Below, piece after piece: positions 5,445 to 9,157 of a stretch of 64,000 nt of DNA. Position 1 is the stretch's first letter, and every line of letters begins with the position of its first letter. Made by a program: the position numbers and the translations under genes. Where the stretch lies: contig JAAFIS010000003.1 in the NCBI GenBank assembly GCA_013298695.1, forward strand, positions 1 through 64,000, in the 5' to 3' direction. The notes under the pieces were generated by a model that was not told the DNA's origin, searched no databases, and saw only the letters and a list, made by a program, of their open reading frames with translations. This DNA comes from Betaproteobacteria bacterium (GTDB lineage: Bacteria > Pseudomonadota > Gammaproteobacteria > Burkholderiales > Casimicrobiaceae).

Positions 5445-5895
5445 GCGCGGCGAAAAACGTATCTCCCTTCGAGCGCGCTGGGCGAATTGAGGAAGACTAG
5501 TGTCCTTCACAAATCTAGTGAATTGAAACCTGCCCGAACGAGGAGGTGATACCTCTCACTTTTGGCGATAGCATATTCAGACAAAACTTAGAGCAAAGTA
5601 TCAGACCGGGTGTTAAAAAGAGTGTGTTTTCCTATGAAACGAGCGGGTTTCACTCGCTTTTTTTGACAACAACGCGCGTTTCAATTGACCGATTGGGCGC
5701 GGAGCACTCGATAAGATGAATCCGAAGCGCTGCGGGTTGCGTAGTCCTCGCACAGCAGCATGTTCCGACCGTTTATCGAACCGATGTTCGTGACGGCAAC
5801 GGAGGCGTAAGCTCCGTTAAAAAGCGTCATCCAAGAACACGCACTAAGTTAGCGGATATTGGGAGCCAGTAGTTTGTTGGTTGAGGTGTTTCGGT
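5445..5895. other. Intergenic region panB to luxR
   Basis: About 450 nt without a convincing gene. It contains a clear intrinsic terminator (5642-5664) nearly 200 nt after panB, so a small RNA or a long panB 3' UTR may end there. A short palindrome GAGGT-N3-ACCTC lies near 5544-5556. Past the terminator is a hairpin AACGGAG-N7-CTCCGTT near 5797-5818. A GCTGGGC (5477) and GCCCGAA (5532) pair 62 nt across resembles a decayed paired-hairpin element. The stretch is AT-richer than neighbouring genes. Confidence 0.45.
5642..5664 (+). terminator. Rho-independent terminator upstream of luxR
   Basis: Stem AGCGGGT / ACTCGCT (7 bp with one G-U pair) around a TTC loop, followed directly by seven T residues. 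It lies 198 nt after the panB stop and 230 nt before luxR, so it closes panB read-through or a small RNA and insulates luxR. Confidence 0.75.
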
Positions 5896-6624
5896 ATGGA
5901 TATCGATAAGATATTGGGTGAGTTTTCTGCTGCGGACGGTGACGCGAACGCATATTTCGAGGCGCTTAAGCGCGTCGCGAATTCTCTTGGGTACGACCAT
6001 GCGATTGCCGCATATGCACCGAAGGCGGGCGAACGTAAAAATGCATTCCTCGCGAGCACTTACTCGCAAGAGTGGATGCGAGAACAAAGCCAGCTAGAAA
6101 TGAATGATGTGCTCAGAGATCCTATCGTCTCTCATTTGAGCACTCGCGTAGATCCAATCTTCTGGAGCAAGCGCAACTACGATGACGTGGGCTTGGCGGC
6201 GTTCTATGAACACGTGAAGAACAAGGGCCTTGGCTCCGGTATTGCGCTAGCCGTGCGCGGCGTACGTGGAGAGATGTTGAGCGTAGGCTTTAGCAATTCG
6301 GAACAACTCTCGTCAGATCGTAATTTGCCAGTCGAGCAAATGGGTGCCTTGTATTTATCTGCGACCGCAATGTTCAATCGATTCTTGGATATTGAAGAGC
6401 AGCGCAAGTTTGAAATGCAAGTAGAAACACCAAAGCTCACGCCACGTGAGCTTGAGTGTTTACGCTGGTCACGCTCTGGAAAAACGAGCTGGGAAATTGC
6501 CAAGATACTCGGCATTTCGCAGGCAACCGCGATTTTCCACATGAAAAACGCGATTTCAAAACTGGGTGCTTCTAACAAAACACACGCAGTGATCATGGCC
6601 GTCGAGCTGCAGTTAATCAGCTAA
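5896..6624 (+). CDS. LuxR-family regulator with autoinducer-binding domain (no LuxI partner in window)
   Basis: A 242-residue regulator: N-terminal autoinducer-binding domain (about 20-165) and C-terminal LuxR helix-turn-helix (about 178-240). Compared with TraR/LuxR, the ligand-pocket residues Trp (W60), Asp-Pro (D75-P76), Trp (W90) and the glycine of GLGSG (112-114) are present. The position four after the first Trp, normally Tyr, is Gln64. The DNA-binding signature is intact (LTPRELECL, then GKTSWEIAKILGIS). The ATG at 5896 is chosen because GAGGTG lies nine bases upstream; a TTG at 5881 is in frame but overlaps that ribosome site. No luxI homologue lies in the window, so it may be a LuxR solo. 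A lux-box-like palindrome and a peptide gene follow directly. Confidence 0.88.
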   Translation: MDIDKILGEFSAADGDANAYFEALKRVANSLGYDHAIAAYAPKAGERKNAFLASTYSQEWMREQSQLEMNDVLRDPIVSHLSTRVDPIFWSKRNYDDVGLAAFYEHVKNKGLGSGIALAVRGVRGEMLSVGFSNSEQLSSDRNLPVEQMGALYLSATAMFNRFLDIEEQRKFEMQVETPKLTPRELECLRWSRSGKTSWEIAKILGISQATAIFHMKNAISKLGASNKTHAVIMAVELQLIS

Positions 6625-6915
6625 GAAATCAAATCGCGACAGTACTGACCTAGTCCTCTAGCGCAGAGCACTTGCTGCCCCGCAGCACTGTCCGATTTGT
6701 TTGCGGATTACCGTATTGATTTACCCAATTTTTGTTTGCCGCCGAAACGTGCTTGGGCTTTAGCTGCCAATTTAGGCAGCTAGACAAACCTTACATTTTC
6801 TCTTAGGCGAAATAGGCTCCACAACTCTCAATAAAGCGAGTTCACAGCGCGCTAGCGCTCCGTTGAAATAGATCCAACGCAATCAAGCGTTCTATCAATC
6901 CTAACGGAGTAAGTC
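6625..6915. other. Regulatory region between luxR and the peptide gene
   Basis: 291 nt, AT-rich, no other gene seen. It holds the 22-bp palindrome at 6761-6782 and a TAGACA hexamer (6781-6786) overlapping its right edge that could act as a -35 box with no obvious strong -10. Two small inverted repeats lie in the presumed leader RNA: AGCGC-N4-GCGCT near 6847-6860 and AACGC-N6-GCGTT at 6876-6891, the latter just before the peptide ribosome site. Confidence 0.5.
6761..6782. promoter_or_regulatory. Lux-box-like operator
   Basis: A perfect 8-bp inverted repeat, TAGCTGCC and GGCAGCTA, separated by AATTTA. It contains CTG (6764-6766), ten bases, then CAG (6777-6779), the CTG-N10-CAG hallmark of LuxR-family binding sites. 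It lies 136 nt after the luxR stop and 133 nt before the peptide ATG. Position and symmetry suggest that the upstream LuxR protein binds here to control the peptide gene. This is inference; binding is not shown. Confidence 0.7.
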
Positions 6916-7032
6916 ATGCAAGTCGAAGCAAAAGTGGGTCAAGAGAATGAAGTGGTCGAACTCTCTTTGGAGCAGATCGATATCGTGGCTGGTGGTTTCC
7001 CGGTAGTACCTCCACTGGGTGGCGGCGGCTAA
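6916..7032 (+). CDS. Small double-glycine-leader peptide (38 aa)
   Basis: A 38-codon gene with a good ribosome site (GGAG six bases before the ATG). The first 27 residues are acidic and end in ELSLEQIDIVAGG. Counting back from the GG, this gives L at -12, S at -11, hydrophobic residues at -7 and -4 and Gly-Gly at -2/-1, the pattern of leaders cut by C39 peptidase-containing ABC exporters. What follows is an 11-residue core FPVVPPLGGGG with no Cys, Ser or Thr, so a lanthionine or thiazole product is unlikely. It could be a secreted signal, a bacteriocin-like peptide or an RiPP precursor. The unit has its own operator-like site and terminator. No exporter or modifying enzyme is adjacent, unless the convergent PLP enzyme is involved. 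Confidence 0.7.
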   Translation: MQVEAKVGQENEVVELSLEQIDIVAGGFPVVPPLGGGG

Positions 7033-7052
7033 ATCGAAGCTACCGAAGCGTT

Positions 7053-7105
7053 CTAGGGCTGGAGCAATGCGATATTCGTCGCATTCCTTCAGCCCTAGTC
7101 GTTTT
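7053..7105 (+). terminator. Long terminator hairpin after the peptide gene
   Basis: CTAGGGCTG at 7053-7061 pairs with CAGCCCTAG at 7090-7098. An inner AATGCGA / TCGCATT pair forms a second block, with a small internal bulge and a TATTCG loop. TCGTTTTATT follows. The hairpin starts 21 nt after the peptide stop, so the peptide mRNA is probably short and monocistronic. It also separates this unit from the convergent PLP-enzyme gene. Confidence 0.75.
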
Positions 7106-7159
7106 ATTGGCGTCAACGTGCGTGCCGCTCCAACATGACGAACGCTCTTTAAACGGCGA

Positions 7160-8290
7160 CTATATTGGGGTGAGCTGAGCGAAACGTTTGCAAGCGTGTT
7201 CGCAGTTTCCTAGCTGGGCATTGACCCATGAATCGGAGTGATAGGTCGGAAGGTATCGCTCGCCTGCGTCACAAATGAGCGAGAGAATCGCCCCTTGCAC
7301 GCCAGCTTTTCGCATTTCTTCAGCAATTGAAATTACCGCAAAGAAATTGGTGCCCGTTGACGGTCCGACTTTTCGCGCGAGCAGTGCCGACAGCGATCGC
7401 ATCGCGGCAATTGAATTCACATTGCTTACTTCAATCATTCGATCCACAAGCTCGCGAATGAAGCTTGGCTCCACCTGCGGGCGACCGATACCTTCGATTT
7501 TTGAGCCGTTAGACGTCAAGCTCGCGTCGCCACTTTGGTGATACTTTGCAAACACTGATCCTTCTGGATCGGCCACGCACAATTGCGTCGGATGGCGGTG
7601 ATAGCGGACGTAGCGTCCAATCGTCGCGCTGGTGCCGCCGGTGCCCGCGCCGACCACGATCCACGTGGGTATGGCATGTCGCTCTCGTGACATTTGCGAA
7701 AAAATGCTCTCCGCAATATTGTTGTTGCCGCGCCAATCCGTTGCGCGTTCAGCGTAAGTGAATTGATCCATGTAGTGGCCGCCGCTTTCCTTCGCAAGCA
7801 GGCGTGACGCGGCATAAACATCGCTCGCGCGCTCAACGAAATGGCAGCGCCCACCGTAGAACTCGATCAGCGCAATTTTTTCAGGCGACGTTGTTTTCGG
7901 CATCACCGCGATAAATGGCAATCCGAGCAAGCGAGCGAAATACGCTTCGCTCACCGCCGTTGAACCGCTTGACGCCTCAATCACCGTTTGCCCTTCACGA
8001 ACCCAGCCGTTGCAAAGGGCATACAAAAATAGTGAACGCGCAAGACGATGCTTGAGTGACCCGGTCGGGTGCGTGGACTCGTCTTTGAAATAGATATCGA
8101 TGCCAGCGTCGCTAAATTTCTTGATCGAATCAGATTTGATCGCGATCAAGTGCGTGTCGGCAGAGCGCTGAAAATCGGATTCGATTTGCGCAATCGCCCA
8201 GTGCAACCATTGTTGCGAAGTTGCTGAATTGAGTGCAGCGCCTACGCTGGAGCCCGCATGAAATAAGCCTTCGGTCGTATTGCCTGTCAT
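7160..8290 (-). CDS. PLP-dependent cysteine-synthase-family protein
   Basis: A fold-type II PLP enzyme of 376 residues (start at 8290, MTGNTTEG). The Schiff-base lysine is K80 in PTGSLKHR, the substrate loop is [10 protein letters not shown] near 104-113, and the phosphate-binding loop is [12 protein letters not shown]. The frame is open to 8503, but that would overlap the divergent amidotransferase gene. The family includes O-acetylserine sulfhydrylases and cystathionine beta-synthase-like enzymes. The N-terminal ~45 residues and longer C-terminus set it apart from CysK/CysM, so the real substrate is uncertain. It converges on the peptide gene and is divergent from the amidotransferase across a 57-nt gap. 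Confidence 0.85.
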
Positions 8291-8313
8291 AATCTTGTCG
8301 TCAATATATGTTT

Positions 8314-8330
8314 TCAGCGAATAGCGCTGA
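8314..8330. promoter_or_regulatory. Operator-like inverted repeat in a divergent gap
   Basis: TCAGCG and CGCTGA flank AATAG in the 57-nt gap between the divergently transcribed PLP-enzyme and amidotransferase genes. Perfect 6-bp arms and the location suggest a protein-binding site acting on both genes. No regulator can be named. Confidence 0.4.
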
Positions 8331-8347
8331 GTGCGAAAGCGAAGTTT

Positions 8348-9157
8348 ATGTGCCGCCTGCTCGCCTACACGGGCGAACCGATTTTCCTCGAAGAGCTCAT
8401 TTGTAAACCGCAGCATTCTCTCGTTCGGCAGTCGATGCGTGCCGATGAAGCGAAGGTTACGACCAATGGCGACGGCTTCGGCATCGGCTGGTACACCGGT
8501 CACCCTGATCGCACAGACCCCGGGCTCTATCGCGAGGTCACGCCCGCTTGGTCGGATGAAAACCTGCTCGCGCTTTGCAGCGCGGTGCGCTCACCTCTTT
8601 TTTTCGCACACGTGCGCGCAACCACTGGCACCGCCGTTGCCCGCCAAAACTGTCATCCGTTTCGCTATGGAAAGTATCTTTTCATTCATAACGGGCAGAT
8701 CGGCGGTTATGAAAAAGTTCGCCGACAGCTCGAAGCCATGCTGCCCGATGAACTCTACACAGCACGCAAGGGTGCGACAGACTCGGAACTTATGTTTTTG
8801 CTCGTTATCGCCCAGTTAAATGGGGGTACAGCGCCAGTTGCCGCTGTGGAATCGATGCTTTGCGCGGTTGAACAGGCAATGCAAGAAAAGGGCGTCATTG
8901 CGCCGCTTCGCTTCGCCGCAGTCCTCTCCGAAGGCGAAAGCATTTACGCGTTTCGTTACTCGAGCGACGATAAGCCGCCTACGCTCTACTTAAGCCAATG
9001 TTTCGGCGGCACCGTCGTTGCTTCGGAGCCGCTGCAGGATCGCGCGTCGCCGCAGTGCCCGGAGTGGGCAGCGGTTGCGCCGAATAGCGCGGTCGTTATC
9101 ACTGGCGAGAGCATGATGCGACATTCGCTAAGGTTGGCGCATCTAGAGCCGGTCTGA
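8348..9157 (+). CDS. Class II glutamine amidotransferase (YafJ-like)
   Basis: A 269-residue Ntn-type glutaminase-domain protein. Cys2, exposed after Met removal (MCRLLAYTG), is the expected nucleophile. Downstream blocks typical of the family are [33 protein letters not shown] and TDSELMF. It consists of the glutaminase domain only, as in YafJ and the EgtC-like group, which remove ammonia or gamma-glutamyl groups; the acceptor is not evident. The gene is divergent from the cysteine-synthase-like gene. No ergothioneine genes are nearby, so a role in that pathway is not supported. The end of the gene carries an AT-rich patch with a hairpin GCCCAGT-TAA-ATGGGGG at 8810-8826. Confidence 0.88.

Follow-up and report, generated by a model that had tools for sequence, protein, structure and literature searches.

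Pairing of a LuxR-type regulator with a short double-glycine peptide gene suggests possible peptide sensing in Burkholderiales

Results

A LuxR-type gene followed by a 38-codon gene

We analyzed a 64,000-nucleotide stretch of contig JAAFIS010000003.1 from a Betaproteobacteria bacterium of the family Casimicrobiaceae (assembly GCA_013298695.1), hereafter the window, in which a gene for a solo LuxR-type regulator is followed on the same strand by a 38-codon gene whose predicted product begins with a double-glycine (GG) leader (Table 1). The LuxR gene, a palindrome behind it, the small gene, and a hairpin downstream had been pointed out in an earlier note on this DNA, and all four are present as described. 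The LuxR open reading frame starts at an ATG at position 5896, with an in-frame TTG upstream at 5881, and its product matches the Autoind_bind (E 1.8e-15) and GerE (E 1.3e-17) domains. A structure model (mean predicted local distance difference test score 88, predicted template modeling score 0.67) has the LuxR fold, with LasR, RhlR, QscR, SdiA, and TraR as its PDB matches, and the helix-turn-helix residues E178, L182, and G188 of TraR are retained as E185, L189, and G195.

Table 1. Features of the LuxR–peptide locus, in coordinates of the window.
Feature	Position	Strand	Remarks
LuxR-type regulator, solo	5896..6624	+	autoinducer-binding domain and GerE helix-turn-helix; acyl-homoserine lactone-contact Tyr (TraR Y61) replaced by Gln64
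Palindrome TAGCTGCC-AATTTA-GGCAGCTA, CTG-N10-CAG, possible lux box	6761..6782		both 8-base arms perfect
Promoter-like block TAGACA-N17-TAGGCG	6781..6809	+	inside the most conserved intergenic stretch, kept in 3/3 aligned
Second inverted repeat AACTC-N10-GAGTT	6823..6842		arms kept in 3/3 species; operator or RNA hairpin
Third inverted repeat AACGC-N6-GCGTT	6876..6891		ahead of the ribosome site; arms conserved in 3/3 species
Ribosome site GGAG	6906..6909	+	
Precursor peptide gene	6916..7032	+	38 amino acids
Double-glycine leader	6916..6996	+	27 amino acids, ending LSLEQIDIVAGG
Hexapeptide FPVVPP, then tail LGGGG	6997..7014 (hexapeptide)	+	family motif [FY]-P-[VI]-x-P-[PR]
Long hairpin	7053..7098		between the convergent peptide gene and PLP (pyridoxal phosphate)-enzyme gene

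The regulator and the peptide gene recur together in the same genus

The leader carries the hydrophobic residues and GG of C39-type leaders (L, I, V, G, and G at positions -12, -7, -4, -2, and -1). The leader of the related genome G002 is the same as that of the window and that of G009 differs only at -7 (L), giving L/V/G/G at -12/-4/-2/-1 and I/I/L at -7 in the three genomes, and not the random variation that the earlier note had allowed for. The NCBIfam model for CTB bacteriocins (NF038167) matches residues 11–27 of the precursor (E 0.00028) with 21 bits, under its cut-off of 32.

When 60 genomes, including that of the window, were searched with the peptide alone, three matched (its own, G009, and G002). 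A profile of five LuxR proteins run over 17 genomes of the same genus found this type of LuxR in six (the window's own, G002, G003, G009, G010, and G015), and in all six loci it is followed by a short same-strand frame encoding the family motif of Table 1; we refer to these loci as FP-type. The precursors end in ...LSLEQIDIVAGGFPVVPPLGGGG (window), ...LALDDIEIVSGGFPIVPPNSTTP (G002), ...LALDQLDVVSGGYPVSPPPSSTGG (G009), ...VGAAGGVEDFPVIPR (G015), ...VGAAGVSVDEFPVIPR (G003), and ...IAGATLEAFPIFPR (G010). In three genomes the hexapeptide unit directly follows the GG and precedes a tail; in the remaining three a spacer comes first and the unit forms the C-terminus. Two of the latter, G003 and G010, have no true GG in their precursors. 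The first residue of the unit is aromatic in all six genomes. Over 23 aligned codons, three pairwise comparisons give proportions of nonsynonymous differences of 0.23–0.29 and of synonymous differences of 0.57–0.65. In G009 the regulator and the peptide come from different contigs that overlap, one having its final 99 bases contained in the other. The LuxR gene of G002 (L033:3971-4725) is split by a frameshift, either real or an assembly error, and its peptide frame is open.

Open reading frame lists place different frames on the flanks of the LuxR–peptide pair in G010 and G015, and the pair therefore seems to travel as a unit. With its C39-type leader and its co-inheritance with this LuxR type in 6/6 same-genus loci, the 38-codon gene is real, as the earlier note had proposed. 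That note had also predicted an 11-residue core, of which the hexapeptide FPVVPP is conserved and the LGGGG tail varies.

A related clade pairs LuxR with tryptophan-ended peptides

A scan of genome contigs confirmed 118 relatives of the LuxR profile, and the best 80 of the 118 were kept. A GG precursor with a Trp-ended unit (W-type) follows LuxR in Roseateles, Mitsuaria, Pelomonas, Paucibacter, Rhizobacter, Ideonella, Methylibium, and Albitalea. Among 200 genomes drawn from one Burkholderiales family (f49), 53 hold a LuxR match at E 1e-60 or better, all of which were fetched except G553 (contig edge), and in 44 of the 53 the match is at E 1e-90 or better. The sequence downstream could be read in 43 of these 44 genomes, giving 44 rows with G610 represented twice (L204 and L219); in the remaining genome, G585, the contig ends 31 bases past the LuxR stop codon.

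We scored each row by a strict rule that requires a leader pattern ending in G[GAS] and then x-P-x-x-x-W, with the frame starting within 500 bases. This is satisfied by 40/44 rows (39/43 loci) and by 15/16 loci of a named collection, from which L107 was left out because its LuxR gene is cut; the named and drawn sets share species (L041 and L178, for example) and are not independent. Other LuxR rows give 0/54 and 0/21 (0/75 together), and shuffled segments 18/880. The four drawn rows that miss the rule are L206 (LPRAGW without a GG leader), L213 and L215 (both LPRVGGW), and L203 (GGGLPRVGGL, with no Trp). L046 fails with a leader that is off the pattern, yet it ends in APKHGW twice. Frames beside LuxR with a similar unit end and no GG leader were seen in L254, L206, and L262 (G557, G433, and G455 respectively), the first reading SPKGGW, SPKGGW, and APKGGW consecutively; these frames suggest another export route.

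In three loci (L208, L216, and L219, from G513, G486, and G610), four to five LuxR genes stand in a run beside one W-type peptide gene, with three of those in L219 on the other strand. They are possibly extra receptors. Behind one LuxR copy of L208 (5824-6465 after reorientation of the locus) lies a GG frame of its own, containing ...TPVIPVLPGHGKFPLPDP.... Plasmid carriage of the related LuxR was considered and rejected, as a plasmid collection gave no match at E 1e-30.

Hexapeptide units vary between lineages and are equal within precursors

The 40 passing rows hold 32 different units. Units of named species include SPKGTW in Roseateles subflavus and LPYRGW in Ideonella paludis. Proline at residue 2 and tryptophan at residue 6 are fixed by the rule itself; residues 3 and 4 vary, and residue 5 is mostly G or T. 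The unit lies at the end of the protein in 36 of the 40 rows and is followed by a tail in four, the same two layouts as in the FP group. Twelve rows encode multi-copy precursors with two to five copies, such as five of GPNGGW in L197 and four of SPKGTW in both L178 and L179. In 11 of the 12 the copies are identical and their DNA differs at silent sites only, as in L187, where serine codons are AGT in one place and TCC in another. Selection thus seems to prevent the copies in one cell from diverging, even as the unit itself differs from lineage to lineage. Judged from sequence, this is the pattern expected of a signal that is read by a receptor rather than of a toxin. A peptide that starts with x-Pro would also resist most aminopeptidases.

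A lux box lies between regulator and peptide gene in the related clade

In the W clade, CTG-N10-CAG occurs within 120 bases past the LuxR stop codon in 38/44 rows (1.5/44 in shuffles) and in 10/16 named loci, compared with 6/57 and 3/21 other LuxR rows. Its usual form is CTGTAAGAGTTGACAG. The rows without it are L177, L178, L179, L185, L207, and L217; in L182 the match counted first is not the consensus box, which is present as well. In a set of 23 genomes chosen mainly because the box had already been seen there, CTGTAAGANNTGACAG is found in 21, at the LuxR–peptide locus in 21/21 and as the sole copy in 19, and a reversed control gave none. The extra copies lie upstream of luxR in G465 and elsewhere in G542.

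The earlier note had proposed a lux-box-like operator at the palindrome of the window. The order LuxR, box, peptide is general in the related clade, and this part of the proposal stands; the exact palindrome fared less well, as described below. AGCTGCCN6GGCAGCT has no second exact site in the 4.08-Mb genome record, and on this ground we discarded the palindrome as an exact regulon-wide operator. The looser CTGCCN6GGCAG with up to one mismatch was found once, with 2.1 expected by chance per window, and is not a rare pattern. Directly behind the palindrome, an alignment of the window with G002 and G009 shows a block, AGCTAGACAAAC..TT..ATTTTC, kept in 3/3. If TAGACA (6781-6786) and TAGGCG (6804-6809) were promoter hexamers, the center of the palindrome would lie about 44 bases upstream of the start of transcription, which is close to the site from which LuxR proteins activate. 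A scan of the region for sigma-70 promoters listed no consensus promoter, and an ordinary sigma-70 promoter was rejected.

Behind the peptide gene, the predicted fold of 7040-7116 has an energy of -38.9 kcal/mol (z = -7.8 relative to shuffles). The T tract of the hairpin is weak and a simple terminator scan gave no entry for it; the hairpin is probably a terminator.

A C39 exporter and other recurring neighbors

Among W loci with about 4 kb or more of downstream sequence (16 named and 14 fetched, which excludes L152 and L177-L205), an HlyD-type protein and a C39 exporter are encoded directly downstream in 12/16 named and 10/14 fetched loci. In an eleventh fetched locus (L208) the two genes lie further on; L052 and L208 are from the same species. 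A C39 exporter is near 0/58 other LuxR loci, and none was seen near the LuxR–peptide pair in the four FP loci tested. The window's genome encodes one ATP-binding cassette (ABC) exporter with a C39 peptidase (127 bits, domain set confirmed) on contig C20, together with an HlyD partner; these are 45% and 33% identical to their respective counterparts in L042. This agrees with the C39 export route that the earlier note had read from the leader.

A TAP-like alpha/beta hydrolase (S33-type) and an ABC-2 permease are encoded upstream of LuxR, within 4 kb, in 11/16 named W loci (L039-L042, L044, L054, L056, L074, L075, L083, and L086), and in 0/58 other LuxR loci and 0/4 FP loci. This pair may reflect the shared synteny of related genera or may be a peptide-handling module; by analogy with the peptidases beside PipR, the hydrolase could trim or destroy the peptide.

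A GG leader with a C39 exporter is the classical export route of bacteriocins, and together with the faint CTB-bacteriocin match of the leader this raises the question of whether the peptides are microcin- or bacteriocin-like antimicrobials that the LuxR protein simply regulates. We regard this as very improbable, because the core in the window is of only 6–11 residues, the multi-copy hexapeptides are identical, and a lux box is present. Moreover, the HlyD match mostly begins 292–461 bases behind the LuxR match (859 in L216), leaving little room for an immunity gene, as judged without checking short frames singly.

The peptides could instead be ribosomal products that undergo modification of a Trp or other aromatic side chain prior to being exported or taken up, much as the ComX pheromone is prenylated on Trp. 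Residue 6 of the W-type units and the aromatic first residue shared by the FP-type units would offer a site. Among the neighbors searched for domains, a part of the total, the recurring ones identified are the HlyD protein, the C39 exporter, the TAP-like hydrolase, and the ABC-2 transporter. A maturation enzyme may yet be encoded near the pair or far from it; we rate such modification as improbable.

The ligand pocket has mostly lost an acyl-homoserine lactone-contact tyrosine

Receptors of acyl-homoserine lactones (AHLs) share W57, Y61, D70, P71, W85, and G113 in TraR numbering, according to the excerpted text of PMC10134790. We compared these positions in 129 LuxR proteins. Tyrosine is present at position 61 in 66/67 homologues without the peptide, compared with 0/5 FP-type proteins (which have Q, C, or S), 8/47 W-type proteins, 0/7 tandem copies, and 0/3 proteins of a third type from the same genus. 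Tryptophan at position 57 is found in 65/67 of the homologues without the peptide, 5/5 FP-type, 4/47 W-type, 0/7 tandem-copy, and 3/3 third-type proteins. The window protein has Gln64 at the Tyr position and keeps the other five residues, so that the complete six-residue AHL pocket is not present.

No LuxI was found in the window's genome, in which the sole hit to PF00765 (24.3 bits, cut-off 24) fits Acetyltransf_5 better. Some genomes being incomplete, a clear LuxI is absent from 40/44 W and 6/6 FP genomes, and three weaker PF00765 hits (in two W genomes and G010) also fit Acetyltransf_5 better. Because the contact Tyr is replaced and no LuxI was found, AHL sensing by the window LuxR, the input that the earlier note had in mind, is unlikely, and an AHL circuit is rejected or at least weakened.

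LuxR may nevertheless sense some other molecule, such as an exogenous AHL or a metabolite, and switch on a small effector peptide, the peptide then being an output. A changed pocket can let a LuxR solo respond to other molecules, as described in the excerpts of PMC10134790 and PMC4414361, and the residues D70, P71, W85, and G113, retained almost throughout our set, count in favor of this alternative, as does the Tyr kept in some W-type proteins. PipR offers a precedent. Its response was to the tripeptide Ser-His-Ser and depended on a peptide-type ABC importer (excerpt of PMC4981722); an ethanolamine derivative has since been assigned as its inducer (excerpt of PMC10134790). This reassignment makes PipR a caution on the ligand step. 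Even so, units with Pro at 2 and Trp at 6 and a variable middle, identical in tandem and differing between precursors, look like signals read by a receptor, and a box located at the peptide gene and hardly elsewhere is as in a self-reinforcing signal circuit rather than one with an output-only peptide. The scarcity of clear LuxI genes in the W genomes further argues against this alternative, and we consider an output-only peptide unlikely.

A tree of the LuxR proteins places the FP type on one branch (100/99). It leaves out L033, L087, L102, and L107 (no usable start), L099, L100, L105, L109, and L217 (stop), L162, L166, L168, L171, L172, and L219, and also identical rows. The third LuxR type of the genus (from G011, G014, and G003) lies close to the peptide-linked clade. 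The G011 copy is followed by a frame with a GG leader (L117:2194-2394) that ends in GPIVII, again with Pro second; no such GG-leader frame was seen in G014 or beside the third-type copy of G003.

Genes flanking the pair in the window

PanB is encoded upstream of the pair in the window. On the peptide side is a convergent gene for a PLP enzyme, which scores 544 bits to the L-cysteine desulfhydrase Cds1 (cut-off 600), and beyond it one for an EgtC-like amidotransferase (184 bits, cut-off 219). These genes for the Cds1-like PLP enzyme and the class-II amidotransferase (7160-9157 in the window) adjoin the pair in the window's genome, G002, and G003 (loci L033 and L034 besides the window), in a different order in G003, and the PLP enzyme is also beside the pair in G009. 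They are possible output genes.

Discussion

We consider it probable that this LuxR-type regulator senses its own exported short peptide, with proline second, and drives the production of that peptide. The pair and its conservation, the leader, the hexapeptide, the identical copies, the box and exporter of the related clade, and the loss of AHL-contact residues are features of the sequences, from which the following circuit may be drawn. The LuxR protein, with no LuxI, would activate the neighboring peptide gene from a lux-box-like site. A C39 exporter, which for the window is encoded on another contig, would cut the double-glycine leader, any tail or spacer would be trimmed, and a short peptide (FPVVPP, possibly with LGGGG) would leave the cell. 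It would return to the cytoplasm, most simply via an ordinary oligopeptide importer, and bind the autoinducer domain of LuxR, closing a positive feedback loop; the peptide gene would thereby stand in for the luxI of AHL quorum sensing. The LuxR–peptide pairing is well supported by sequence comparison and peptide export is plausible; the peptide as LuxR ligand, a step that the earlier note had not proposed, is the least certain part of the mechanism, and we infer it as likelier than that note's own reading.

Several observations weigh against this proposal. A second tier comprises 18 stretches that hold either a LuxR match between E 1e-60 and 1e-90 or a second LuxR copy. Two of the 18 end before a peptide could show; among the 16 readable ones, one (G517) passes the strict rule, three (G557, G455, and G568) do so in part, and 12 have nothing of the kind. 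This mixed outcome makes the pairing a property of the main clade and not of all relatives. A test of receptor–peptide coevolution gave a weak signal (partial Mantel r 0.151, permutation p 0.038) in 28/40 rows, 12 being dropped because their LuxR duplicated one in the other collection, was broken, or was outside the tree set; it was set aside as support. Of the 44 W genomes, four do have a LuxI, with PF00765 matched at E 1e-20 or better. The W type, FP type, tandem copies, and third type fall into one 64-row group of the tree with moderate support (91/78), and that group also holds two rows, L103 and L155, for which no peptide was found. The exporter of the window's own branch is in trans. As 15/17 genomes of this genus encode a C39 exporter whether or not they hold the pair, its co-occurrence proves little here and was rejected as evidence for the genus. 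The C20 exporter (L122:8020-13664, G000) has, moreover, a convergent GG-peptide gene of its own behind it (...LDDIELLFVGGGDVVQMGG), along with a gene for an HD_5-domain protein.

The perfect palindrome, too, is not kept in the two closest relatives (5/8 arm positions in G002, counted by eye; broken in G009), and CTG-N10-CAG is found in 1/6 FP-type regions, that of the window itself. Its absence from the other five, together with the frequency of the one-mismatch pattern, is what would be expected if LuxR and peptide were unrelated neighbors and the palindrome were noise. A chance neighborhood of this kind is nonetheless exceedingly improbable in view of the recurrence of the pair in every FP locus, with other flanks in G010 and G015, its presence in 40/44 W rows, and its absence from all 75 other LuxR rows.

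Beside the exporter, similar GG frames were seen in G002, G009, and G015, and tandem ones in G003 (four, ...GGGEFSGLLN), G005 (six near-identical, ...GGGEAVGTTY), and G007 (two). By their sequences, these exporter-side frames would be a second family of short peptides tied to the exporter.

The proposed circuit resembles LuxI/LuxR systems in its two-domain LuxR, in the CTG-N10-CAG box beside the regulator in the related clade, and in a putative adjacent target gene that makes the signal. It differs in having a peptide gene instead of a LuxI enzyme and in the replacement, in most proteins, of the AHL-contact Tyr and, in the W group, also of the Trp. OryR and PipR (PMC4981722 and PMC10134790, both as excerpted) are likewise LuxR solos changed at TraR Y61, the W group sharing with them a change at W57 as well, and the TAP-like hydrolase upstream of W-type LuxR genes is a distant echo of the peptidases beside PipR. 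In those excerpts the neighbors of OryR and PipR are proline iminopeptidases and importers, the substitutions are M and W (W57M and Y61W), and the peptide tested with PipR is not self-encoded; the proteins considered here have Q/C/S or F/Y and others, and the window LuxR, with W at 57 and Q at 61, has PanB, the PLP enzyme, and the EgtC-like protein as neighbors.

Among Gram-positive bacteria, RRNPP systems use short linear peptides, some from multi-copy precursors, with a tetratricopeptide repeat (TPR) protein as receptor. A cytoplasmic receptor encoded next to a short propeptide, the arrangement described for Firmicutes in the excerpt of PMC10075063, is shared by the loci considered here, which differ in having a LuxR-type rather than a TPR receptor, in belonging to Betaproteobacteria, and in their C39-type leader. 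The leader motif and the C39 ABC exporter with HlyD-type partner are as in Gram-negative double-glycine peptides such as class II microcins, unlike which the peptides here are hexapeptide units tied to LuxR and a lux box, with no core of toxin size. Dirix and colleagues reportedly surveyed genomes of Gram-negative bacteria for double-glycine peptides with C39 exporters. We found no description of a system of LuxR, GG-hexapeptide, and C39 exporter in the open PMC literature, a scope that does not extend to preprints. The parts are known, and within that literature the combination was not seen; should the peptide prove to be the ligand, the system would count as a new class.

On balance we lean, by a little, toward a class of peptide-sensing LuxR proteins that switched from AHLs to C39-exported, often multi-copy hexapeptides with proline second and a middle that gives specificity. 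In such a class the peptide gene would occupy the place of luxI behind a lux box, and there would be two related branches, FPxxP[PR] and xPxxxW, and perhaps a third (GPIVII, in G011).

The usual teaching is that LuxR proteins sense lactones and a few other small molecules and that linear peptide pheromones belong to Gram-positive bacteria. If the proposal is true, a family with an exported-hexapeptide gene where luxI would otherwise stand would bridge lactone-type and peptide signaling, and would supply a ligand for a group of LuxR solos and a role for at least some Gram-negative double-glycine peptides. This is directly testable with six-residue synthetic peptides in cultured Roseateles, Ideonella, or Albitalea. 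That the pair recurs in relatives, and with six-residue peptides of many kinds, suggests that peptides may serve these bacteria for communication, through a family of receptors best known for lactones.

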